This document shows positions 13,996-44,955 of a stretch of DNA of 44,955 nt, one piece after another; the first letter of the stretch is position 1; each line of letters begins with the position of its first letter. This DNA comes from Bdellovibrionales bacterium (GTDB lineage Bacteria > Bdellovibrionota > UBA1018 > JADZFF01), in contig JADZFF010000064.1 in assembly GCA_020850015.1 (NCBI GenBank), positions 1 to 44,955 on the forward strand, read 5' to 3'. Under the pieces are notes generated by a model, which saw only the letters and a program-made list of their open reading frames with translations, was not told the origin of the DNA and ran no database searches. Position numbers and translations under genes: made by a program.

Positions 13996-14194
13996 CCCGC
14001 TGTAAATCGTAAGAGCTAACATATTGTTATTACTTGGTTATGCCTCGAATGTCTGCGGCGCGGCGCAGGCATGTGGCTTGCTCTAGTAGCGCTTCATCAG
14101 CCCCCGCGCACGTGGGCGGCCAGTGGAAGCGGAAGTTGAAGTGACACCCCAGGGGCATGCTAGACCCCGATTGCGGATGCGGAGTGGAGCAGGA

Positions 14195-15367
14195 ATGAAG
14201 AAGCACCAGAGCAACTCATCTTGGATCACGAGCCTGGCCCTGGCGGGCCTGAGCCTGACGTTTTTCGGCTTCGCCAAGCTGCCGGACGACGCCAAGCGGA
14301 TCTTCAAGGACAGCATCACGCCCTCGCGCAAGGCGCTCACCCAGCCCTTCAAGAACTGGGGCCTGCTCAACGGCACGGGCAAGAGCCACATCTCGGCTCC
14401 CGAGGCCTGGAAGATCGAGCAGGGCTCGCGCGACGTCGTCGTGGCCGTCATCGACACCGGCATCGACCCCCGCCACCCCGACCTCGGCGCCAACGTCTGG
14501 CGCGACAAATCCGCCCGCAGGACCGCGCGCTCGCAGGGCGAGTTCGGCTGGGACTACGTCACGAACCGCCCCGATCCCTCGGACGAACAGGGCCACGGCA
14601 CGCACGTGGCCGGCATCATCGGCGCCACGGCCAACTCGCGCGAAGGCGTGAGCGGCGTCGCTCCGAAGGTTTCGATCATGGCCGTGAAGTACTACTCCGA
14701 CGCCAATCCAGGCTCGGTGAACCTCGCGAACACCATCAAGGCCATCAACTACGCCGTGGCCAAAGGCGCGCGCATCATCAACTACAGCGGCGGCGGCCCG
14801 GAGTTTTCGGAGGCCGAGTACCTCGCCATCAAGAAGGCCGAGGCCCGCGGCGTGCTCTTCGTGAGCGCGGCCGGGAACGAGCGCCAGGACACGGATCTGC
14901 CGGAATACTACTACTACCCTGCCGCCTACCGCCTGCCGAACATCATCACGGTGGCCGCCACCGACATCCACAACAACCTGCTGCCTTCGTCGAACTGGGG
15001 CCGCACGCGCGTGGACGTCGCCGCCCCCGGCGAGAACATCTACAGCACCCTCCCGGGCGGCAAGTACGGCTACATGTCGGGCACCTCGCAGGCCACGGCC
15101 TTCGTGACCGGAATCGCAGCCCTGCTGCTCTCGCGCAACCCGAACCTCACTCCGGCCGAGATCAAGAAGCTCATCCTCGACTCGGTCGACCCCGTTCCGC
15201 AGCTCAAGAGCCGCGTCGCTACCGGTGGGCGCGTAAACGCGCACCAGGCCCTGCTCGCCCTCACGCAGCCGGGCTGGAAGCCCCTGCGCGACTCGCGGCC
15301 CTCGGATCTCGTGGCGCGCCGCCCGGTGTCGCTGCTCGATGCCCTGGCGCCGGGTTTCGAGAACTGA
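14195..15367 (+). CDS. Secreted subtilisin-like serine protease (S8)
   Basis: The ATG at 14195 is preceded by GGAG at 5-nt spacing. The N-terminus (KKHQSNSSWITSLALAGLSL) looks like a signal peptide or anchor. The S8 triad is complete: Asp87 in VAVIDTGID, His134 in GHGTHVAGI, Ser298 in MSGTSQATAF. The oxyanion Asn is in SAAGNE. The 390-aa length leaves a short pro-region of about 60 residues (residues 30-90) rather than a full I9 inhibitor domain, and a C-terminal tail of about 50 residues after the fold. It is expected to be an active exported endopeptidase. It is monocistronic; the next gene has its own promoter. Confidence 0.95.
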   Translation: MKKHQSNSSWITSLALAGLSLTFFGFAKLPDDAKRIFKDSITPSRKALTQPFKNWGLLNGTGKSHISAPEAWKIEQGSRDVVVAVIDTGIDPRHPDLGANVWRDKSARRTARSQGEFGWDYVTNRPDPSDEQGHGTHVAGIIGATANSREGVSGVAPKVSIMAVKYYSDANPGSVNLANTIKAINYAVAKGARIINYSGGGPEFSEAEYLAIKKAEARGVLFVSAAGNERQDTDLPEYYYYPAAYRLPNIITVAATDIHNNLLPSSNWGRTRVDVAAPGENIYSTLPGGKYGYMSGTSQATAFVTGIAALLLSRNPNLTPAEIKKLILDSVDPVPQLKSRVATGGRVNAHQALLALTQPGWKPLRDSRPSDLVARRPVSLLDALAPGFEN

Positions 15368-35388: not shown

Positions 35389-36357
35389 TTAGACTGGAAC
35401 CCAGAAGTGAGCCATTGGCCCTGGTGTGACCTCGACTTCGGTGGGCCCGGACAGGGGATGCAGCTCACCGTCGAGCGTGATGCCTCCGCCCAGGCGGGCC
35501 ACGAGCCGCTCCGCGCCCGCGGCTTGAAACAGGCCCAGATGGGCGAGGGTTCCGGGGTCGCCCCAGCCTGCCAGAAGCCGGGGCACATGCCTCGCCAGAT
35601 CGCGAAGCTCCATCCCGTTGGCGGCCACGTGAAAGGTCCCGGGCTCAAGCGCGGCGGGCGAAAAGGGCCTGATTCCGAGGCTGAGCCTCGGGACCGTCCC
35701 CGCCAGGAGCGAAAGACAGGAGAGCTCAGGGTCTCCGTCGACCACTCCTCCTTCCACGCGCATTCCGAGCGCCGCACGCTCGAAAAGCGAGCCGTCGCGG
35801 CCCAAAGCCGCCCGAACGATGGTCTGCCCGGCCACCACCAACGCGTCCCACGGCCCCGGGCGGGCGGCCCGGGCGTAGTAGGCGCGGAGCACCCGCTCCC
35901 CCACTCCCCATGCCATGAAAAATCCGTACAGCGGGGCCGCATCGCCGATTCGGACGCGGAGGGTGGGCACCGCGCGAAGCGCCGCGAGCCTGCCCTCGCT
36001 CCAACGCTGGAGAGTGGTAGCACCCGAGCCCCGAATGCCGAGCCAGGAACTGAGGAAGTTGATCGTGCCCCCACGTACGGCCAGAAGCGTGGGAAGCGCG
36101 GCCCCTTCCCCGCGCGCGCGGATCCAGGCCGTGATGCCGCGGCTCACGGAACCGTCGCCCCCGTAGAAACACAAGGTGCCCGAGCGTCGCTCCGGATGAG
36201 CCGAAAGTTCCTGAAGGACCTGATCCAGCTCCTCGAGATTGTGGGTCACGCGCACGTCGGGCCTGCGCGGCGCGAGCGCCCGGGCCATCTTCGCCTCGGC
36301 GCCGGCGCACCTGCGCGCGTGCGGATTCAGAACGACGGTGAGCGGCCCGGCCGTCAC
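35389..36357 (-). CDS. Diacylglycerol/lipid kinase family protein (DAGKc)
   Basis: A 322-aa protein of the YegS/DgkB type. VVLNPHARR near the start, CFYGGDGSVSRGI (GGDG at 66-69, nucleotide binding) and LLAVRGGTINFLS (GGTxN) are the catalytic-domain motifs. The C-terminal TLDGELHPLSGPTEVEVTPG is the usual lid strand. Such kinases phosphorylate diacylglycerol, sphingoid bases or related lipids with ATP. The GTG start overlaps the psd stop as GTGA, so the two genes are translationally coupled, which points to membrane-lipid metabolism. The natural substrate is not known. Confidence 0.88.
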   Translation of the reverse strand: MTAGPLTVVLNPHARRCAGAEAKMARALAPRRPDVRVTHNLEELDQVLQELSAHPERRSGTLCFYGGDGSVSRGITAWIRARGEGAALPTLLAVRGGTINFLSSWLGIRGSGATTLQRWSEGRLAALRAVPTLRVRIGDAAPLYGFFMAWGVGERVLRAYYARAARPGPWDALVVAGQTIVRAALGRDGSLFERAALGMRVEGGVVDGDPELSCLSLLAGTVPRLSLGIRPFSPAALEPGTFHVAANGMELRDLARHVPRLLAGWGDPGTLAHLGLFQAAGAERLVARLGGGITLDGELHPLSGPTEVEVTPGPMAHFWVPV

Positions 36358-37244
36358 GCGGAGGCCACCGCTTCACCGAGCCGAACCGCGGTCTCGCGGC
36401 CCGCCTCGGTCTGGGCGAGCAGATCGGCGTCGGGCTTCCAGCGCCCCGGCTCGCCCATCAGCACCACCGTGGAGCCTCCGAACAGGAAGTAGCCCTTCTC
36501 CTCGCCGCGCGCGTGGGGTTTCGACTCGTCATGCGACTGCACGATGCGCCCCACGCAAAGCGCGCCCACCTCGACGCAGGCCAGAAGCCCGAAGTTCGCG
36601 CTCTCGAGCACGGCCACGCGGCGCTCGTTCGTGAAAAGGATGTCCTCCCGCCGCGCGAGCGCGATCGGGCTCACGGAGTGCAGGGGGCCATGGAGGGTGT
36701 AGGCGTCGAGCGTGCGGCCCGCGTCGGGATAGTGGTAGCGGTGGTAATCCGTGGGGCAAAGGCGCGCGATCATGAGCGGGCCGCCCGACAGGCGCTCCGC
36801 CCAACCGCCCCGCTCGCCCAGGAGGGCCGAGGCCGAGATACGGCTCCCCTTCACGGGATAGCGTCCAGCGGGGCCGGTCTTGGCATAAGCCACGTACTTG
36901 CCCTCCGCGAACGCGGGCAGGCGCTTGGGAGCGCTTTCCCAGGGGCGCACGCCCTCGCGGAAGCGCCGGATGAAGAAGTCGTTGAAGCTGCGGAACCCCG
37001 GATCCACGTACTCGTCCATGGGGATCTTGAAGTCGCGGATGAAAGGCTTGATCTTGCGGCGGCTCAGCGCCGAGCTCTGTACGGCGCCGTAGACCCGACT
37101 GAAGGGCCTCCGCGTGAGCAGAGTCGCCGTCAGGGCCCGCCCCGGGGCGGTTTCATAAATCCACCGCATGAATTTCTCGCCGTACACGGCTTCCGTGGCC
37201 AGCCGGCCCGCGCGCCGGTCCCAGTACTGGATGTCGGTTCCCAT
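36354..37244 (-). CDS. psd: Phosphatidylserine decarboxylase proenzyme
   Basis: A 296-aa enzyme that converts phosphatidylserine to phosphatidylethanolamine at the inner membrane. Seen: FRSFNDFFIRRF, LCPTDYHRYHYPDAG (catalytic His region) and the self-cleavage site in FLFGGSTVVL, where Ser258 would become the pyruvoyl group (the family motif is xGST). ATG 37244 is chosen because the usual N-terminus begins close to IQYWDRRAG. TAGGCT lies 7 nt upstream, a candidate leaderless -10. The lipid kinase gene follows with a 4-nt overlap. Confidence 0.95.
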   Translation of the reverse strand: MGTDIQYWDRRAGRLATEAVYGEKFMRWIYETAPGRALTATLLTRRPFSRVYGAVQSSALSRRKIKPFIRDFKIPMDEYVDPGFRSFNDFFIRRFREGVRPWESAPKRLPAFAEGKYVAYAKTGPAGRYPVKGSRISASALLGERGGWAERLSGGPLMIARLCPTDYHRYHYPDAGRTLDAYTLHGPLHSVSPIALARREDILFTNERRVAVLESANFGLLACVEVGALCVGRIVQSHDESKPHARGEEKGYFLFGGSTVVLMGEPGRWKPDADLLAQTEAGRETAVRLGEAVASA

Positions 37245-37251
37245 GCCGGGA

Positions 37252-37257
37252 AGCCTA
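37252..37257 (-). promoter_or_regulatory. Candidate leaderless -10 box of psd
   Basis: TAGGCT on the minus strand, 7 nt before the ATG at 37244. No -35 box was recognised; supported only by position. Confidence 0.3.
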
Positions 37258-37296
37258 ACACAAAGGCCACGCCCCCCCATGGGTACCGGAGGCCCG

Positions 37297-38259
37297 TCAG
37301 ATGCTCGGAACGGCGCCCCTGGATCGTGCGACGCCACCCAATACCGGTCCCAGGGCCTGGCGCTCCACGGCGTCGGCCTCCGAGGCGCGGATGCCGGTAC
37401 CCGAGGGCCCGCCACGCGGTGCATCCGCCGACGTACGTTCGCTCAGGCGCGTACACTCGGCCTCATAAAGCTCCGGGTAGTACAGGAACTTGATCCACGC
37501 CTCGTCGCCCGCGCTTGGCACGCCGCCGTTGTTCCAGTCGTCGTTGCAGTAATTCATGATCGAGTCCTCGTCCCAGGGGCCGAGATGGAGGTCGGGCCTC
37601 GAGCCCTGCGCGGGAGGCGCGTCGCCGCAGGCCTCGCCGGGGCCGGTGGGAGTATCCTCGCGGTTCTGCTCGTGCGTAAGCCCAAGGGCGTGGCCGAACT
37701 CGTGCGCGGCGATCTTGCGGATGCAGCTCTCACGGACCGCGGCGTTGGCCATGCAGCTTGGCTGCCAGACGTTGTAAGTGAAATTCAAGATCATCTCGCC
37801 GTGGCGGTCGCGCAGCCCCCTCCCGAGCTCCGTCACGCGCGGGTTCTCGTCGGCCACCCGGATGCGGATGCCGCCGGAGTTGCCCTCCGAGCAGCGCGTC
37901 CAGCCCACGAAACGCATGCGGCGCGACTCGGGGATCCCCGGCACGTTCAGGATGCGCCCCCAGGTCTGCTCGATCTGATCGCGCGTCCACTGCCGTTCCT
38001 GGTCGCGGGCCGGGTCGTAGGACTCGTCCTGCCAGCAGACCGGGATCTGCCGCAGGTCCCAGATCTCGGCCGACCGCGCGGAAAGCGCGGAGACCACCAC
38101 CCCGATCTCGGAGTCGTCGGGCACCGTGCCGCCTCGAGCCTCGAGCCCGTCGCAGTACCAGGGTTCCGGATCCGTGCAGCCCCGGTTTCCCATCGAAATC
38201 GGGGCGGCCAAGAGGAGCAGGAACGTCACTGCCAATCGGCGGCGAGAATTGAGTTTCAT
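37297..38259 (-). CDS. Secreted metzincin metalloprotease
   Basis: A 320-aa protein with an export signal (MKLNSRRRLAVTFLLLLAAP). A Cys at 28 follows NRG, so a lipoprotein is possible but the lipobox is poor. The full metzincin motif AAHEFGHALGLTHEQNR is present (His186, Glu187, His190, Gly193, His196), and DEDSIMNYC is the Met-turn, closest to the astacin/matrixin style. Several Cys pairs suit an extracellular fold. GGAG lies 8 nt before the ATG, so this gene uses a normal leader. The 52-nt gap to psd contains psd's own candidate promoter. Expected to be an active exported protease. Confidence 0.9.
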   Translation of the reverse strand: MKLNSRRRLAVTFLLLLAAPISMGNRGCTDPEPWYCDGLEARGGTVPDDSEIGVVVSALSARSAEIWDLRQIPVCWQDESYDPARDQERQWTRDQIEQTWGRILNVPGIPESRRMRFVGWTRCSEGNSGGIRIRVADENPRVTELGRGLRDRHGEMILNFTYNVWQPSCMANAAVRESCIRKIAAHEFGHALGLTHEQNREDTPTGPGEACGDAPPAQGSRPDLHLGPWDEDSIMNYCNDDWNNGGVPSAGDEAWIKFLYYPELYEAECTRLSERTSADAPRGGPSGTGIRASEADAVERQALGPVLGGVARSRGAVPSI

Positions 38260-38431: not shown

Positions 38432-39376
38432 TCACAGCCAGATCGACAGCACCACCGACGCCGCCGATGCCGCGAGCGTGCCGATCATGAGGCGCTCCAC
38501 GCCCTCCCGGATCGGCGGCGCTTTGAGGGGCTTCTTCAGGAAGGGCAGGCACTTCAAGAGCAGATGCGCCCAGAGGCAGGCGGGCAGGAGCCAGGGAAGA
38601 AGCACGAGCGGGGTCCAGGCGGCGGAACCGAGCGACCAAAAGGCCAGCCCTTGGCTGAGAATCCCCAATCCCCGCACGACGACGGTCACCGGCCGGGGCC
38701 CATAGAGCTTGCTGTAGGTGATGTAGGCCGTCTCCTCTCGGGTGCCGCGGATCTTCCGGCCCAGCTCCCACTGCGTGAATCCCAGGGCCACGGCCGCGAG
38801 GTACGCGACGGCGCCCGGAGGAACACCCGCTGCGCCGGGGGCGTCGGCCTGGCCTGGAAACCAGAAGAAGCTCAGGACGTAGAACTGCTGGAGAGCCACC
38901 ACGGGATGGTGGGTGAGAAAGGCCGCCGTAAGCCGCGGGCGGATCCAAGCTTCCGCGAAGAACCACCGGTACGTGCCCCCGCCAAAAAGAAGCAGTAGAA
39001 TGACGGCGAACAAGGGGCCCTTCCCCACGAAGGGAAGATTCGCCGCGAGCACCAGCGTGTTGAGCGCCACCATCAGGAGCTTGAGGTCCCGCAGGCTCAC
39101 CGTTCCCTTCACGAGCGGTCGGTTCGGGAAGTTCACGGGATCCGTTCGGTGATCCTTCACCTCGTCGTACACGCGAAGAAGAATCACGAAGGCCACCGTG
39201 GCCAGGCCGCCCAGCCCGAGCTCCAGTGCGGGGACCTGCAGATAGAAGAAGAACCGACTCAGGACCCAATGGCAGACGGCGAAGGTGGCGAATATGCCCA
39301 GCTGCGAGGGAAACAGGGGAACCATCTCGCGAATGAATCGCCCCCAGCGGCCAGCCATCGTGGAACCCTTTTTCAT
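38432..39376 (-). CDS. UbiA-family prenyltransferase
   Basis: A 314-aa integral membrane protein with about eight to nine helices. The first Asp-rich motif VYDEVKDHRTD (Asp71, Asp75, Asp79) is followed by FPNRPLVKGTVSLRDL, and the second conserved loop ELGRKIRGTREETAYITYS matches the UbiA pattern E-xx-RKI-R. UbiA enzymes join an isoprenoid diphosphate to an aromatic ring or, in archaeal-type lipid synthesis, to a glycerol-phosphate lipid; the acceptor cannot be told here. It is divergent from the aminotransferase-reductase operon across 117 bp, and has its own leaderless promoter. A CarS-like gene in that operon makes a lipid acceptor worth considering. Confidence 0.9.
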   Translation of the reverse strand: MKKGSTMAGRWGRFIREMVPLFPSQLGIFATFAVCHWVLSRFFFYLQVPALELGLGGLATVAFVILLRVYDEVKDHRTDPVNFPNRPLVKGTVSLRDLKLLMVALNTLVLAANLPFVGKGPLFAVILLLLFGGGTYRWFFAEAWIRPRLTAAFLTHHPVVALQQFYVLSFFWFPGQADAPGAAGVPPGAVAYLAAVALGFTQWELGRKIRGTREETAYITYSKLYGPRPVTVVVRGLGILSQGLAFWSLGSAAWTPLVLLPWLLPACLWAHLLLKCLPFLKKPLKAPPIREGVERLMIGTLAASAASVVLSIWL

Positions 39377-39382
39377 TTTCCG

Positions 39383-39411
39383 AGTATGACCAATGACTTG
39401 ACTCCCCTCAA
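39383..39411 (-). promoter_or_regulatory. Leaderless promoter of the UbiA-family gene
   Basis: On the minus strand TTGAGG (39411-39406), 17 nt, CATACT (39388-39383), 6 nt and ATG (39376). Confidence 0.55.
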
Positions 39412-39430
39412 GAGTTCGACTTTTTATAGT

Positions 39431-39450
39431 AGACCATTTTAGTCCATTTC
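39431..39450. repeat. Tandem 10-bp direct repeat AGACCATTTT/AGTCCATTTC
   Basis: Two copies matching at 8 of 10 positions lie head to tail at one helical turn, in the AT-rich divergent region between the UbiA gene and the aminotransferase-reductase operon, just upstream of the plus-strand promoter candidates. This layout suits an activator that binds tandem half-sites on one DNA face. Confidence 0.4.
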
Positions 39451-39453
39451 TTC

Positions 39454-39482
39454 TTGCCGAATATAACGCAAAGTGTCATAAC
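39454..39482 (+). promoter_or_regulatory. Candidate promoter of the aminotransferase-reductase operon
   Basis: TTGCCG (39454-39459), 17 nt, CATAAC (39477-39482), predicted start about 5 nt before the ATG at 39494. An alternative -10 is TATAAC (39462-39467), giving a 20-nt leader. No Shine-Dalgarno sequence is visible in either case. Confidence 0.4.
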
Positions 39483-39493
39483 TCTCGACTGGC

Positions 39494-42196
39494 ATGGAGT
39501 CCCTCATCCAGCAAAATCAGGAGTCCCTCGCGGCCCTCCCTCCCCGACCGTCCTTGCACGAGCTGGGGCGCCGTTACGGCAAGAGCTCCCTCGTGGATCT
39601 GCTCCAGCTTCTGGGCCTGGACCGCGTGTACCATCGCGCCGAGGCCGACCAGATCTTCTACCGGACACCTGACGGAGAAGAACGCGCCGTTTGGGACTTC
39701 CTGGGCGGTTATGGCTCCACGATCCTGGGGCACCATCCCCCGGAAGTCCGCGGCGTGCTCCGCCGCGCGCTCGACGATGGCGTGCCCGTGCACGCGCAGG
39801 CCTCGCTTCGCGCCGGGGCCCAGGAGCTGGGGCTCGCGCTGAACCAGCTCATCGCCTCGGACCGCTCCGACCCCCTGACGCCGCCGCCCCGATACCATGC
39901 GCACCTGCTCAATACGGGCACCGAAGCCGTGGAGGCCGCGCTCAAACACGCCCTCATGGAGTGGAGCGAGCGGCGGGCCCGGCTTCTCCTGCGCCTGGAG
40001 CGCGAGCGCAACCGAGCGCTCGGAGCCACCGAAGGCGCGTCGGAGCGCGCGCGCATGGCTGAGCGGCTGATCGAGGCCGTGCAGAACGCCGAGCCCACGA
40101 TCCTCGCGATGGAGGGATCTTTCCATGGCAAGACGGCGGGCTCGCTCGCCGTCACCGCCAACTCGGCCTACTCGGCCATGTACCACTCGCGCGCCGCACG
40201 CACGGAGTTCCTGCCCTGGAACGCCGACGCCGCGCTCGTTCGGAGCGCCTTCGACCGCTTTCTCGTCGCCGCCACGGACGAGCTCTCGTTTTCCAGCCTC
40301 GCCGCCGTGATTTTCGAGCCCGTGCAGGGCGAAGGTGGCGTGCGCCCCATGAATCCGGCCTTCGCGTGCGAGCTCGCACGCAATGCTGGTCTTCAGGGCG
40401 TGCCCCTCATCGCCGACGAGATTCAGAGCGGTCTCTACCGCACGGGCCGCGCGCTCGCCTCCCACGGCCTGGGCCTCACACCGGATTACGTGACCCTCGG
40501 GAAAAGCCTCGGCGGAGGATATGCGAAGGTATCGGCCTTCCTCGTACGCTCCGAACGATACGTACCCGAGTTCGGCCTCCTCCACAGCTCCACCTTCGCG
40601 GAAGACGAGCCCAGCTCCCTGGCCGCGCTCGAAACCGTGCGCACCCTGGCCTCCATGCCTCGAACGCTCACGGACCGTGCCCAGCGCTTCGAAGGCCGCA
40701 TGCGGGAAGGCTTCGCGGGGATCATGCAGCGCCATCCCGGAGTGATCCGCGAGGTTCGGGGCCGCGGGTTCCTTCTGGGCGTGGAGTTCGCAGCCGAAGA
40801 GGGCCTCTCGAGCGTGCTCGTGCGCGACATGCTCGCGAGCACGGGGTACCTGGGCTACGTCTTCGCGAGCTACCTCCTGGAGCGCCACGGCATACGCGTC
40901 GCCGCGACCCTGAGTCAGGGCAATACGCTGCGCATCGAACCCTCGGCCTTCGTTCCGGATGAGGCGGTGGACGCCTGCCTCAAGGCCTTCGAGGAGCTCG
41001 CCACCCTCGTCCACACCCGCCGCTTCCTGGCGCTCACGGCCCACCTCTGGCCCGACGCTTCGCGCAGCCCGGCGCTCGCCACTTCGCCGCTGGCCTCGCT
41101 GCCCGCCCCAAGCCGGATCCACGGCAAGACCGGACTCCGAAAAGTGACCTTTCTCTCGCACCTCATCGACTCCGAGCACCTCTGCGCCCTCGACCCTCTC
41201 TTCGGCGCCCTGAGCGCGGCCGACCGGACGCATTTCCTCGAGCAGGTCGGCCCGCTCGTGCGCCCGCAGATCTACTACGAGCAGATCGTGGAGGGCTCGA
41301 ACGGCGAGCGCGTGCAGCTTCAGCTCATGGGCATCGCCATCGGAAGCTCCTTTTTCGAGAAGTGCCTCCGCTCCGGCGACCGCACCGCGCTCCGGAAGGT
41401 CCAGGAAGGCGTGATCCGCGCCATGCGCGAGGAGGGCGCCACCCACCTGGGTCTGGGCCAGTACACGAGCATCGTCTCGGACAACGGACTCCTGCTCTCG
41501 CTCGATCGCCAGTGGAACGTCACCACGGGCAACAGTCTCACCGCGGGCTTCGCGCTGCGCTCCCTGGAGCAGGCGCTGGAGCGCCGAGGCCGCCGCTTGG
41601 ACGACTGCCGCGTCGGGATCGTGGGCGTGGCCGGAAACATCTGCAACACCCTGGCTCAGCTCGTGGCGGACCGGGCCTCGGCCCTCACCGTCGTGCACCG
41701 CGAGTCGCTCAAGGTGAGCCCGAAGTTCCAGCGCGCCGTGGCCGAAGTCGTGAAGAACTCCCGGCTGAGCCTCGACGCCATCCACGCCACCTCGGATCTC
41801 GCCGACCTCAATGCCTGCGACGCGGTAATCCTGGGCACCAACAGTTCGCGCCAGCTTCTCCTTCCCGAGCACCTCAAGAACGGCGCCGTGGTGCTCGATA
41901 TCTCCGTGCCCTCCAACATCCACCCCTCGGTGTTCGAGCTGCGTCCCGACGTGGACTGCTTCCAGGGCGGCTACGCCCGCATGCCGCTCGGCCAGAAGCT
42001 CGGCTCGCGTTTCGTGCCGATCGCGGAAGGGGAGATTTTCGCCTGCATGGCCGAGACCCTGGCCACGGCGCTCGACGGGCATCAGGGGCGGCTCTCTTTC
42101 GGGCCGCTCAGCAAGGCGAGCGTGCTCGACGCGCTCGCAATGGCCGACCGGGTTGGCATCGGCCTGGGCTCCCTGAAACGCACGGCGGCCATCTGA
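39494..42196 (+). CDS. Fusion: class-III aminotransferase + acyl-ACP reductase-like domain
   Basis: A 900-aa two-domain enzyme. Residues of about 45-500 are a fold-type I, class-III (omega) aminotransferase: LNTGTEAVEAALKHA, EGSFHGKTAGSL, FEPVQGEGG, LIADEIQSGLYRTG (PLP Asp) and TLGKSLGGG with the PLP lysine at 337. Residues of about 545-900 resemble cyanobacterial long-chain acyl-ACP reductase (AAR): FLSHLIDSEHL, VRPQIYYEQIV, GLGQYTSIVSDN, VTTGNSLTAGFAL, the Rossmann segment VGIVGVAGNICNTLAQLV, and GEIFACMAETLATAL. That last segment keeps the Cys (851) matching the acyl-carrying Cys of AAR. Inferred reaction: acyl thioester to aldehyde with NADPH, then transamination to a primary amine, as in the PigE/TamH bifunctional enzymes, which use a different reductase. 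The next gene starts 7 nt on. Confidence 0.85.
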   Translation: MESLIQQNQESLAALPPRPSLHELGRRYGKSSLVDLLQLLGLDRVYHRAEADQIFYRTPDGEERAVWDFLGGYGSTILGHHPPEVRGVLRRALDDGVPVHAQASLRAGAQELGLALNQLIASDRSDPLTPPPRYHAHLLNTGTEAVEAALKHALMEWSERRARLLLRLERERNRALGATEGASERARMAERLIEAVQNAEPTILAMEGSFHGKTAGSLAVTANSAYSAMYHSRAARTEFLPWNADAALVRSAFDRFLVAATDELSFSSLAAVIFEPVQGEGGVRPMNPAFACELARNAGLQGVPLIADEIQSGLYRTGRALASHGLGLTPDYVTLGKSLGGGYAKVSAFLVRSERYVPEFGLLHSSTFAEDEPSSLAALETVRTLASMPRTLTDRAQRFEGRMREGFAGIMQRHPGVIREVRGRGFLLGVEFAAEEGLSSVLVRDMLASTGYLGYVFASYLLERHGIRVAATLSQGNTLRIEPSAFVPDEAVDACLKAFEELATLVHTRRFLALTAHLWPDASRSPALATSPLASLPAPSRIHGKTGLRKVTFLSHLIDSEHLCALDPLFGALSAADRTHFLEQVGPLVRPQIYYEQIVEGSNGERVQLQLMGIAIGSSFFEKCLRSGDRTALRKVQEGVIRAMREEGATHLGLGQYTSIVSDNGLLLSLDRQWNVTTGNSLTAGFALRSLEQALERRGRRLDDCRVGIVGVAGNICNTLAQLVADRASALTVVHRESLKVSPKFQRAVAEVVKNSRLSLDAIHATSDLADLNACDAVILGTNSSRQLLLPEHLKNGAVVLDISVPSNIHPSVFELRPDVDCFQGGYARMPLGQKLGSRFVPIAEGEIFACMAETLATALDGHQGRLSFGPLSKASVLDALAMADRVGIGLGSLKRTAAI

Positions 42197-42203
42197 GGAC
42201 GCG

Positions 42204-44711
42204 ATGAGCAACGGAAATCAAGCACTCATGCATCTTGGATCCAGCGACTTCCGCGAGGCGGAGGCCGGAGGCAAGGCCGCGCCCCTGCATCTCCTGGCGC
42301 GGGCCGGGTTCCCGGTGCCCCCGGGATTCGTCGTGCCTTCCGTGCTCGCGCTCGACTCGCTCTCGGAGTCCGAGCTCGCCGAGGCGATCCAGGCGATCGG
42401 CGGATTCCCCGTGGCCGTGCGCTCGAGCGGGCTGCTTGAGGATCTGGGCGACGCGAGCTTCGCCGGCCAGTACGCGACCTTTCTCGAGGTCTCGGATCTC
42501 GCCGAGCTTCGCCGCAAGATCGCGCTCTGCCGCCTCTCGGGCTCGAGCCCCCAGGTGCAGGCCTACCTGAGGCGCCGCGGGCTCGCCCCCGAAGCCGCCC
42601 GGGTGTCCGTGCTCGTGCAACGGATGGTCCCCGCCTCCGTTGCCGGCGTGGCTTTCACCCTCCACCCCCTGAACGGGCGGGAGGAGCACGCCCTCGTGGA
42701 GCTGTGCCGAGGCCTCGGCGAGCGCCTCGTTTCCGGCCTCACTGACCCCACGCGAATCACCTTGGACCTTCGCGACGCCTCCGTCGTGGAGCGCAGCCCG
42801 GGCGCCGAGGACGCCGCGCTTTCGCCGGAGGTCCGCGAGGAGCTCCGCCGAAGGCTTCTTGAGCTTCAGGCTCGCGCCGGCCGCCCCCAGGACGTGGAGT
42901 TCGCGGTGGACGCGGAGGATCGGCTCTGGCTGCTCCAGTCCCGCCCGATCACGGTGTTCCGTTGGCGCGACGAACCCGACGAGTACACGAACGCCGACCT
43001 CAAGGACGGTGGCGTCTCCGCGCGCGTCTGCACTCCGATGATGTACGCGCTCTACCGCGACGCCTTCCAGGAAGCCATGCCCGCCTATGCCGAGGCCGTG
43101 CGCCTGCTCCCTCGTTCGCGCGCGCGCGTGAACCGCGACATCCCCTGGATTCGGTCCTTCTATGGACGCGTATACTGGAACGCCTCGGCCGCGAAGCGGC
43201 TGATGGCCTCCATCCCGGGCTTCGACGAACAGCGATTCGACCAGGACCTGGGAATCCAGAAGAGCTACGGCCCCCAGGGACCGCTGCGGGTGCCCACCAC
43301 GGCGGCCACCATCCTTCCGGCGATTCCCGTCGCGATCGCCCTGGCCCGGCACTACGAGCGGCACCTCGTCCACACCCGCCGCTTCCGCGCCGAGTTTCCC
43401 GCCGCCGAATCGCTTTTCCTGCATCGTGCCTCCGAGTTCGCGCGCGTGCCCGACGCCGACTTCTGGGCCCAGCTCCAGGAGTGCCTGAACTGGCAGCACC
43501 ACGCGGAGGTCACGTACTTCACGACGATCTTCGCCAACACCAACGCGCAGAGCGACTTCAAGACCCTCGTGGCGAAGATCGACCACGCCACCGGAGGTGT
43601 CACTTCCGTCATCCGCCTCATGGGCGGGCTCGAGGGCGTGAGCCACCTGAACGTCCAACGCGATCTGCCCCCGCTCCTGGCCCTGGCCCGTACCGAGGGC
43701 ACAGCGAGCGAGCCCTACCGCCGCGCGCTCGCGGCCTTCCTGGCCTCGCACCACTATCACGCCAACGCCGAGCTCGATCTGCTCTGCCCCCGCTGGGGCG
43801 AGGACCCCTCGATCGTGACGGCGATGGTGGAACGCCTCCTGCGCTCGGGCGCGGCACCGGCCGATCCGGATGCCTCGGCCCGCGCGCAGGCCCGCGCCTT
43901 CCGCGAGGAGCGCGACGCGGTCCGTGAACGCCTCCGCGAAGCGGGTTGGGCGACGCGGCTCCGATTCCTCTCCTCCTTCGAATCGGCACTCGCGCGCATG
44001 CGCGAGTACCTGGCCGCTCGCGAGGAGATGCGCGACTGCTCGTCGCGCGCCTACCGCGTCATGCGGCTTTACCTCCTCGAGGCGGGGACGCGCCTTGCCC
44101 GCAGCCAGTGGGTGGAGGACTCGAACGACGTTTTCTTCATGGACACGGCGGAGCTCCGCGAATGCGCGAGCACCACGCCCAACCTCGATGCCCTGCGCGC
44201 CCGGATCGGCTACCGTCGGCTCATGTTCCTGGGTCTCAGCGAGCTGAGCCCGCCGAACGAGTTCGGCTCGGGCGTGCTTCAGCAGAGCGTGGAAAGCGCG
44301 CGCCTCGTGGGCGCCGGAGGCGAGACCCTGCTTCAGGGGCTGGGCTGCAGCCCAGGCGTCGTGGAGGGCCCCGTGCGCGTGCTCGCCGAGCTCTCGCACT
44401 CCGGCGAGCTCAGGGAGGGCGAGATCCTCGTGACGCGCTTCACGGATCCAGGCTGGACGCCCGTGCTCGGACTCGTGCGCGGGATCATCACCGAGGTGGG
44501 CGGGCTGCTCTCGCACGCCGCCGTGATCGGGCGTGAATACGGCATCCCAGCGGTCCTGAATCTGCCGGGCGCCACGCAAACCCTCCGCACTGGCATGCGA
44601 GTGCGGCTCGACGGCAACTCGGGCCGGGTGACGCTGCTGAATGAAGCCGATGCGGCGCCACTCCGCCCGAACGCGATTCCCTCCGGCGCGGAATCCTCCC
44701 TGCCCCTATAA
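42204..44711 (+). CDS. PEP-synthase-like phosphotransferase/ligase (ATP-grasp + phosphohistidine domain)
   Basis: An 835-aa protein. The N-terminal ATP-grasp (PPDK/PEP synthase type) shows AGGKAAPLHLLARAGFPVPP, VAVRSSGLLEDLGDASFAGQ and LWLLQSRPITV. A long middle domain (about 265-680) does not match the PEP-binding barrel. The C-terminal swivelling domain has GLLSHAAVIGREYGIPAV with the phospho-His at 771. This ATP-grasp/substrate domain/His layout and length are those of rifampin phosphotransferase and of the prodigiosin/tambjamine condensing enzymes PigC/TamQ, not of PEP synthase proper. So it probably activates a small molecule or lipid with ATP. GAGGA lies 4 nt before the ATG. It directly follows the aminotransferase-reductase gene and should act on its product or on a partner of it. 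Confidence 0.85.
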   Translation: MSNGNQALMHLGSSDFREAEAGGKAAPLHLLARAGFPVPPGFVVPSVLALDSLSESELAEAIQAIGGFPVAVRSSGLLEDLGDASFAGQYATFLEVSDLAELRRKIALCRLSGSSPQVQAYLRRRGLAPEAARVSVLVQRMVPASVAGVAFTLHPLNGREEHALVELCRGLGERLVSGLTDPTRITLDLRDASVVERSPGAEDAALSPEVREELRRRLLELQARAGRPQDVEFAVDAEDRLWLLQSRPITVFRWRDEPDEYTNADLKDGGVSARVCTPMMYALYRDAFQEAMPAYAEAVRLLPRSRARVNRDIPWIRSFYGRVYWNASAAKRLMASIPGFDEQRFDQDLGIQKSYGPQGPLRVPTTAATILPAIPVAIALARHYERHLVHTRRFRAEFPAAESLFLHRASEFARVPDADFWAQLQECLNWQHHAEVTYFTTIFANTNAQSDFKTLVAKIDHATGGVTSVIRLMGGLEGVSHLNVQRDLPPLLALARTEGTASEPYRRALAAFLASHHYHANAELDLLCPRWGEDPSIVTAMVERLLRSGAAPADPDASARAQARAFREERDAVRERLREAGWATRLRFLSSFESALARMREYLAAREEMRDCSSRAYRVMRLYLLEAGTRLARSQWVEDSNDVFFMDTAELRECASTTPNLDALRARIGYRRLMFLGLSELSPPNEFGSGVLQQSVESARLVGAGGETLLQGLGCSPGVVEGPVRVLAELSHSGELREGEILVTRFTDPGWTPVLGLVRGIITEVGGLLSHAAVIGREYGIPAVLNLPGATQTLRTGMRVRLDGNSGRVTLLNEADAAPLRPNAIPSGAESSLPL

Positions 44712-44712
44712 T
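44707..44712 (+). promoter_or_regulatory. Consensus -10 box directly before the CarS-like gene
   Basis: TATAAT, a perfect consensus, is followed by GCCCTC and ATG at 44719, the 6-nt leaderless spacing. It contains the TAA stop of the upstream gene. No -35 match was seen at 17 nt, so it may be a secondary internal promoter; part of the match is forced by the stop codon. Confidence 0.4.
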
Positions 44713-44718
44713 GCCCTC

Positions 44719-44955
44719 ATGAGTTCCGCTCTCCTCGATGCCCTCTGGCTGAGCCTTCCCCTCGTGATCGGAGGAGGACTTCATATGATGGTGGTGCGCG
44801 GGGACCTTTTTCCGGCCCTTCGCCGCCCGCTTCACGTGCCCACCTTCGGCGCGCACAAGACCTGGCGCGGTTTCGCGGTGATGATCGCGGCCACCGTACC
44901 TGGAGTCTGGATCAGCGCGGCTTTGGACGCGCCTCTCTTTCCGGAAAGCCCGGCC
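44719..44955 (+). CDS. CarS-like CDP-lipid synthase (3' partial)
   Basis: Only 79 residues are visible before the window ends. ALWLSLPLVIGGGLHMMVV is a first membrane helix, and HVPTFGAHKTWRGF matches the F-G-x-x-KTWRG motif of the CarS/DUF46 family, followed by a second helix (VMIAATVPGVWISAAL). CarS of archaea makes CDP-archaeol from CTP and a dialkyl-glycerol phosphate; bacterial homologues probably activate other lipid phosphates or alcohols. It begins 7 nt after the PEP-synthase-like gene, so it is probably its partner, with a possible extra leaderless start. Confidence 0.75.
   Translation, partial: MSSALLDALWLSLPLVIGGGLHMMVVRGDLFPALRRPLHVPTFGAHKTWRGFAVMIAATVPGVWISAALDAPLFPESPA

Follow-up and report, generated by a model that had tools for sequence, protein, structure and literature searches.

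A fatty-amine cassette proposed from the pairing of a transaminase-acyl-ACP reductase fusion with a PEP-synthase-like enzyme in one bacterial phylum

What is made by an operon in which a transaminase fused to an acyl-ACP reductase is followed by a PEP-synthase-like enzyme and a CarS-like CDP-lipid synthase, with a UbiA-like gene running divergently beside it? The question is raised by the end of a contig (C64) from an 88%-complete genome of a Bdellovibrionales bacterium; this contig, taken whole at 44,955 nucleotides, is called the window here. The answer toward which we lean is that the fusion and the PEP-synthase-like enzyme (PEPS1) form a two-gene cassette that makes and uses a long-chain primary amine, with an envelope lipid as the product.

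The four genes had been proposed in an earlier note on this DNA, and gene calls together with family and structure matches bear them out (Table 1). The intergenic gaps between the fusion and PEPS1 (42197-42203) and between PEPS1 and CarS (44712-44718) are exactly 7 nt each, as described before. The last 124 bases of the window (44832-44955) are identical to the first 124 of contig C59 (L144:1-124), and the two contigs are adjacent in the genome. The last base of the CarS gene is C59:421, and a convergent gene (C59:459-1271) for a PgsA-like protein of the CDP-alcohol phosphatidyltransferase family follows it; the operon is therefore complete with three genes, fusion-PEPS1-CarS. The operon had been thought to continue beyond the window, but only 297 nt of CarS remain there. 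Orthologues of all four genes (UbiA-like, fusion, PEPS1, and CarS) are found in identical arrangement in genome G002, so the arrangement is not due to chance.

Table 1. Features at the operon end of the window, with positions counted from its first base.
Feature	Position	Strand	Size and remarks	Basis
UbiA-like membrane prenyltransferase-family gene	38432-39376	-	314 aa, divergent from operon	NCBIfam PRK13592
TamH-type fusion	39494-42196	+	900 aa	PF00202 + PDB 4ppm, 6jzu, 5dds
PEPS1, PEP-synthase-like	42204-44711	+	835 aa	PPDK_N + PEP-utilizers
CarS-like CDP-lipid synthase	44719-44955	+	first 79 of 177 aa; remainder L144:125-421 on contig C59	
Phosphatidylserine decarboxylase (PSD)	36354-37424	-		PF02666, 154 bits
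DAGK-like lipid kinase homologue, weak	35389-36357	-	just below cut-off; candidate member of the system	PF00781, 23.3 bits vs cut-off 23.6

The N-terminal part of the fusion is a class III transaminase (PF00202, 188.7 bits at 60-501) that is closest by sequence to PigE and to CrmG, an aminotransferase that acts in caerulomycin biosynthesis. By predicted fold, the stand-alone CrmG is the closest match (PDB 5dds, 30% identity). Behind the transaminase, Pfam recognizes a Rossmann domain, and the region of about residues 545-895 is assigned as an acyl-ACP/thioester reductase. In the predicted model (pLDDT 77, pTM 0.57), the transaminase fold alone was confirmed among the matches listed; the reductase assignment rests on sequence, as the C-terminal 357 residues match the N-terminal domain of PigE (PDB 4ppm, E 3.2e-17) and the cyanobacterial acyl-ACP reductase AAR (PDB 6jzu, E 1.7e-5). 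The PLP-binding Lys337 is conserved in 22 of 22 aligned homologues, and the GxxGxxG motif at 708-714 (GIVGVAG) and the catalytic Cys851, which lies within FACMAE, are kept across the family (22 homologues checked).

An N-terminal class III transaminase with its PLP lysine and a C-terminal AAR-like thioester reductase with GxxGxxG and a catalytic Cys are the features of a TamH-type enzyme. PtTamH from the tambjamine YP1 pathway of Pseudoalteromonas tunicata shares this architecture and converts C12 acyl-ACP to the amine in vitro with NADH and glutamate (PMC9594044). PigE from prodigiosin biosynthesis (PDB 4ppm) has both domains as homologs and performs the same two reactions, but starts with the reductase, unlike the fusion (PMC8341465). 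The curated PigE model (NF053554) gives the fusion 274.6 bits, whereas its cut-off is 850. The likeness to PigE and TamH that was drawn earlier therefore holds for the domain order of TamH and fails for that of PigE. NADPH, which had been named as the cofactor, is corrected by the characterized TamH, which is specific for NADH and does not use NADPH (PMC9594044).

The reaction that had been suggested for the fusion, in which an acyl-ACP would be reduced and aminated to a long-chain amine, is well supported by the TamH architecture, by the catalytic residues, and by the place of the transaminase in polyketide synthases. Three alphaproteobacterial polyketide synthases (L031:2-5047, L032:2-7843, and L034:1324-5397) carry the same class III transaminase directly after an ACP, and because of this the substrate of the fusion is probably ACP-bound as well. 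An AAR-like reductase lies behind the transaminase in L031, where the two would constitute a reductive-amination release module; L032 and L034 run off their contig ends. The search of the contig collection yielded ten loci with an alignment as query and none with a single sequence. A fusion with 48% identity to that of the window is encoded beside a MacB/FtsX permease gene in a Terriglobia MAG (L026), on a short contig that has no PEP-synthase-like gene.

PEPS1 consists of an ATP-grasp domain (PPDK_N, PF01326), a helical middle, and a phosphohistidine mobile domain (PF00391) that harbors the invariant His771 (alignment A2) and is predicted with low confidence (mean pLDDT 67.6). The protein stops after the mobile domain and has no C-terminal PEP-binding barrel by Pfam, which separates it from PpsA. 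ATP-grasp and mobile His domains without a PEP barrel are shared with the PigC/RedH/TamQ ligases and with Rph. A diagnostic TNADxKDGG-like motif follows the ATP-grasp, and TEVGGLLSHAAVIGRE is a further motif of PEPS1. The closest solved structure by sequence belongs to the 5fbs family, which we take to be Rph. The scores of PEPS1 against the curated models are 249-262 bits, compared to cut-offs of 999-1350 bits: 254 against 1300 for PigC, 249 against 1350 for RedH, and 261.8 against 999 for Rph.

TamQ is the PEP-synthase-like condensing enzyme that stands alongside TamH in the tambjamine cluster. A TamH-type enzyme (PMC9594044) next to a ligase of PigC/TamQ architecture thus recalls the known tambjamine pair, and the PEPS1 of G162 has PigC as its best NCBIfam match (274 bits). 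PEPS1 could accordingly join the fatty amine to a bipyrrole aldehyde or a similar heterocycle, to give a secreted antibiotic of the tambjamine or prodiginine kind. We hold this to be quite improbable. Every PigC and RedH score is far under the cut-off, no prolyl-PCP, PigH-type, or methyltransferase set for MBC was recognizable on inspection of the cluster gene tables, and the ANL-ACP loader (TamA) and the bipyrrole genes of the PtTamH system were not recognized in the present clusters. The gene neighbors differ from those of PtTamH; they are lipid enzymes and lipoprotein-type exporters.

The reading of an amine-making and amine-using cassette draws on the distribution of the two genes, which was surveyed in 369 genomes of the phylum with a threshold of E <= 1e-100 for the fusion model. 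The fusion is matched in 34 genomes and PEPS1 in 39. A PEPS1 orthologue accompanies the fusion in 34 of 34 genomes, and PEPS1 without the fusion is confined to five (G109, G116, G152, G174, and G295), which are 82-87% complete and split into 220-510 contigs. Among the 235 genomes with at least 90% completeness and at most 5% contamination, both genes occur in the same 21. The association has a Fisher p of 4e-43 that is uncorrected for shared ancestry, and the counts are not independent, as the carriers are related genomes from 16 genera. The pair lies on one contig in 26 of the 34 genomes and is at most 60 nt apart in nine. Separation of the genes in relatives, by which the earlier note would have been refuted, is thus not observed for the fusion and PEPS1. 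Because the two are so strictly paired, PEPS1 would be the enzyme that consumes the amine.

The pair is found in two larger clusters, type A and type B. Type A comprises the fusion, PEPS1, a second PEP-synthase-like enzyme (PEPS2), UbiA, CarS, and F12, joined by a P450 in some members. F12 bears a weak likeness to GNAT proteins; it has no Pfam or NCBIfam match, and its GNAT-like PDB match is non-significant (E 0.28). In G162, a single strand carries CarS, UbiA, PEPS2, P450, and F12 in tight succession, and a gemmatimonadete contig has the order P450-fusion-F12. Two MacB/LolCE-like permeases, an ABC ATPase, a LolA_like protein, and an outer-membrane-barrel-like protein are additionally present in the type A clusters of G162, G144, and G173. 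The genome of the window is of type A, with PEPS2 and F12 together on contig C115; the exporter genes are known from its relatives, and none was located in this genome itself.

Type B combines the fusion and PEPS1 with a different PEP-synthase-like enzyme, a BioF/SPT-like enzyme, and an RND transporter, and also holds DAGK-, ThiL-, and thymidylate-kinase-like proteins and a nucleotidyltransferase-like protein. CysD, CysN(C), and a sulfotransferase occur in several type B clusters (L113 and L114 in G186, L022-L024 in G026, and L120 in G010), suggesting a sulfated product. A sphingolipid reading for the genome of the window was rejected, as the SPT/BioF-like genes were found only in type B clusters and score below the SPT cut-offs.

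In a tree of 27 PEP-synthase-like cluster proteins, PEPS1 forms a single clade across both cluster types with one gene per genome, and the second PEP-synthase-like gene falls into other clades that sort by cluster type. The type A PEPS2 has DTNLxES where PEPS1 carries TNADxKDGG. The second gene of G002 is interrupted by an in-frame TGA (L020, at about 12229) before the phosphohistidine domain, either by an assembly error or by decay. Since both cluster types hold the fusion and PEPS1 while the remaining genes vary, these two are the constant cassette and the other cluster genes are exchangeable. G157 retains a 99-aa remnant of the fusion at the usual place (L141:6303-6602, G157:C20:9303-9602) and lacks PEPS1 in its whole genome, although UbiA, CarS, PEPS2, F12, and the exporter are still present. 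Likewise, G123, G180, G328, and G368 have some of the UbiA/CarS/PEPS2/F12 module but neither the fusion nor PEPS1. The membership of UbiA and CarS that had been claimed from the window stands for type A; of the two cluster types only this one includes them, and both also occur apart from the fusion.

This distribution bears on a second role for PEPS1, in which it would phosphorylate an aminated lipid or lipid alcohol in the manner of Rph, CarS would form the CDP-lipid, and a head group would be added to yield an unusual aminophospholipid. CarS follows PEPS1 directly in the window and in G002, a tightly packed operon of PSD, PEPS1, and CarS is present in G108 and G110 with a second PSD elsewhere, and Rph is the nearest solved structure by sequence. 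The type B clusters, however, hold PEPS1 and CarS was not seen in them, the Rph score stays far below its cut-off, and either of the two PEP-synthase-like enzymes per cluster could phosphorylate. We therefore rate this route as rather unlikely. The PSD of the window is possibly linked to the system; it may be a housekeeping enzyme, because it is the only PSD of its genome, and for the same reason its listing as a firm member was reduced to a possible one.

The UbiA-like protein of the window is recognized by NCBIfam PRK13592 (108 bits) and has no Pfam match of its own; one orthologue scores 36.1 bits against PF01040, above the cut-off of 34.2. Its first metal motif, DExKDxxxDxxxFPxRPL, is invariant among the type A orthologues. 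The second Asp motif typical of UbiA enzymes is absent and WExxRKxR...ET stands in its place. The C-terminal part of CarS, encoded on C59, passes PF01864 (25.4 bits, cut-off 22). The CDP-archaeol synthase family of archaeal lipid biosynthesis includes CarS, and the closest solved structure to the UbiA-like protein is the distantly related DGGGP synthase from M. jannaschii (6m31, E 1.3e-5). Both genes could hence be seen as an archaeal-like module for isoprenoid ether lipids, in which UbiA acts as DGGGP synthase and CarS as CDP-archaeol synthase, while the fusion is a mere neighbor. This reading was dropped after GGGP synthase (PF01884) was found in 0 of 12 type A genomes with positive controls, and we give it very little credence: the second Asp motif of UbiA is replaced, and the fusion and UbiA occur together in 18 of the 34 fusion genomes, far above expectation.

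For the cassette, the proposed pathway would start with the transfer of a fatty acyl chain from the acyl carrier protein onto Cys851 of the fusion. Reduction by NAD(P)H would release the aldehyde, which the transaminase domain would convert to the fatty amine. Subsequently, PEPS1 may be charged by ATP on His771 and activate an oxygen of a partner molecule, which is then displaced by the amine, as TamQ is thought to act for tambjamine; alternatively, PEPS1 may phosphorylate the product. The following steps would differ between the cluster types. In type A, the partner lipid may be supplied by the UbiA-like protein, the second PEP-synthase-like enzyme, the GNAT-like protein, and CarS, the last by CDP activation. 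In type B, the partner may be the product of the serine-palmitoyltransferase-like enzyme and the kinases, with sulfation genes in several clusters. The product lipid would finally be carried to the outer envelope by the LolCDE/LolA-like or RND transporters of the same clusters. None of the cluster genes reveals what the amine is joined to; we infer a lipid partner and an envelope destination because of the neighboring genes, as the clusters hold CarS, UbiA, PSD, LolA_like proteins, LolCE-like permeases, and RND transporters.

Fatty amines that are made directly from acyl-ACP are known in a few pigment-antibiotic pathways, and the first step proposed here is of this known kind, that of TamH. 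Literature searches, which covered open-licence papers, found no description of the cluster, which is conserved and apparently undescribed. The same fusion recurs with one constant ATP-dependent partner in 16 genera of one phylum and in a setting of lipid and export genes. This recurrence is suggestive of a biochemical route toward membrane lipids that contain nitrogen, and such a route appears to be undescribed in these papers. More tentatively, the clusters may stand for an undescribed class of envelope lipids that are built on a fatty amine in place of or besides a fatty acid, through a portable fusion and PEPS1 cassette on two lipid scaffolds, and that dedicated Lol-like or RND systems would export to the outer membrane. 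As two genes, the fusion and PEPS1 offer a compact target for expression or deletion. Several of the carriers appear to be related to predatory bacteria, and the envelope lipids of such bacteria matter for the question of how they live inside or on other cells.

Two minor observations may be added. In a third type of locus (L132 in G058, L131 in G097, and L133 in G203), UbiA is accompanied by a PEP-synthase-like gene and by an AAR-like protein that has no transaminase, together with AMP-binding, formyltransferase-like, and DUF3419 (BtaA-like) genes; a LolA/ABC exporter or a gene of the fatty-acyl-reductase-like or DAGK-like kind is also present in some members. Two related subtilisin-like proteases are encoded in the genome of the window, one at 14123-15367 of the window and the other at L117:10858-12396, where it adjoins PEPS2 on contig C115.
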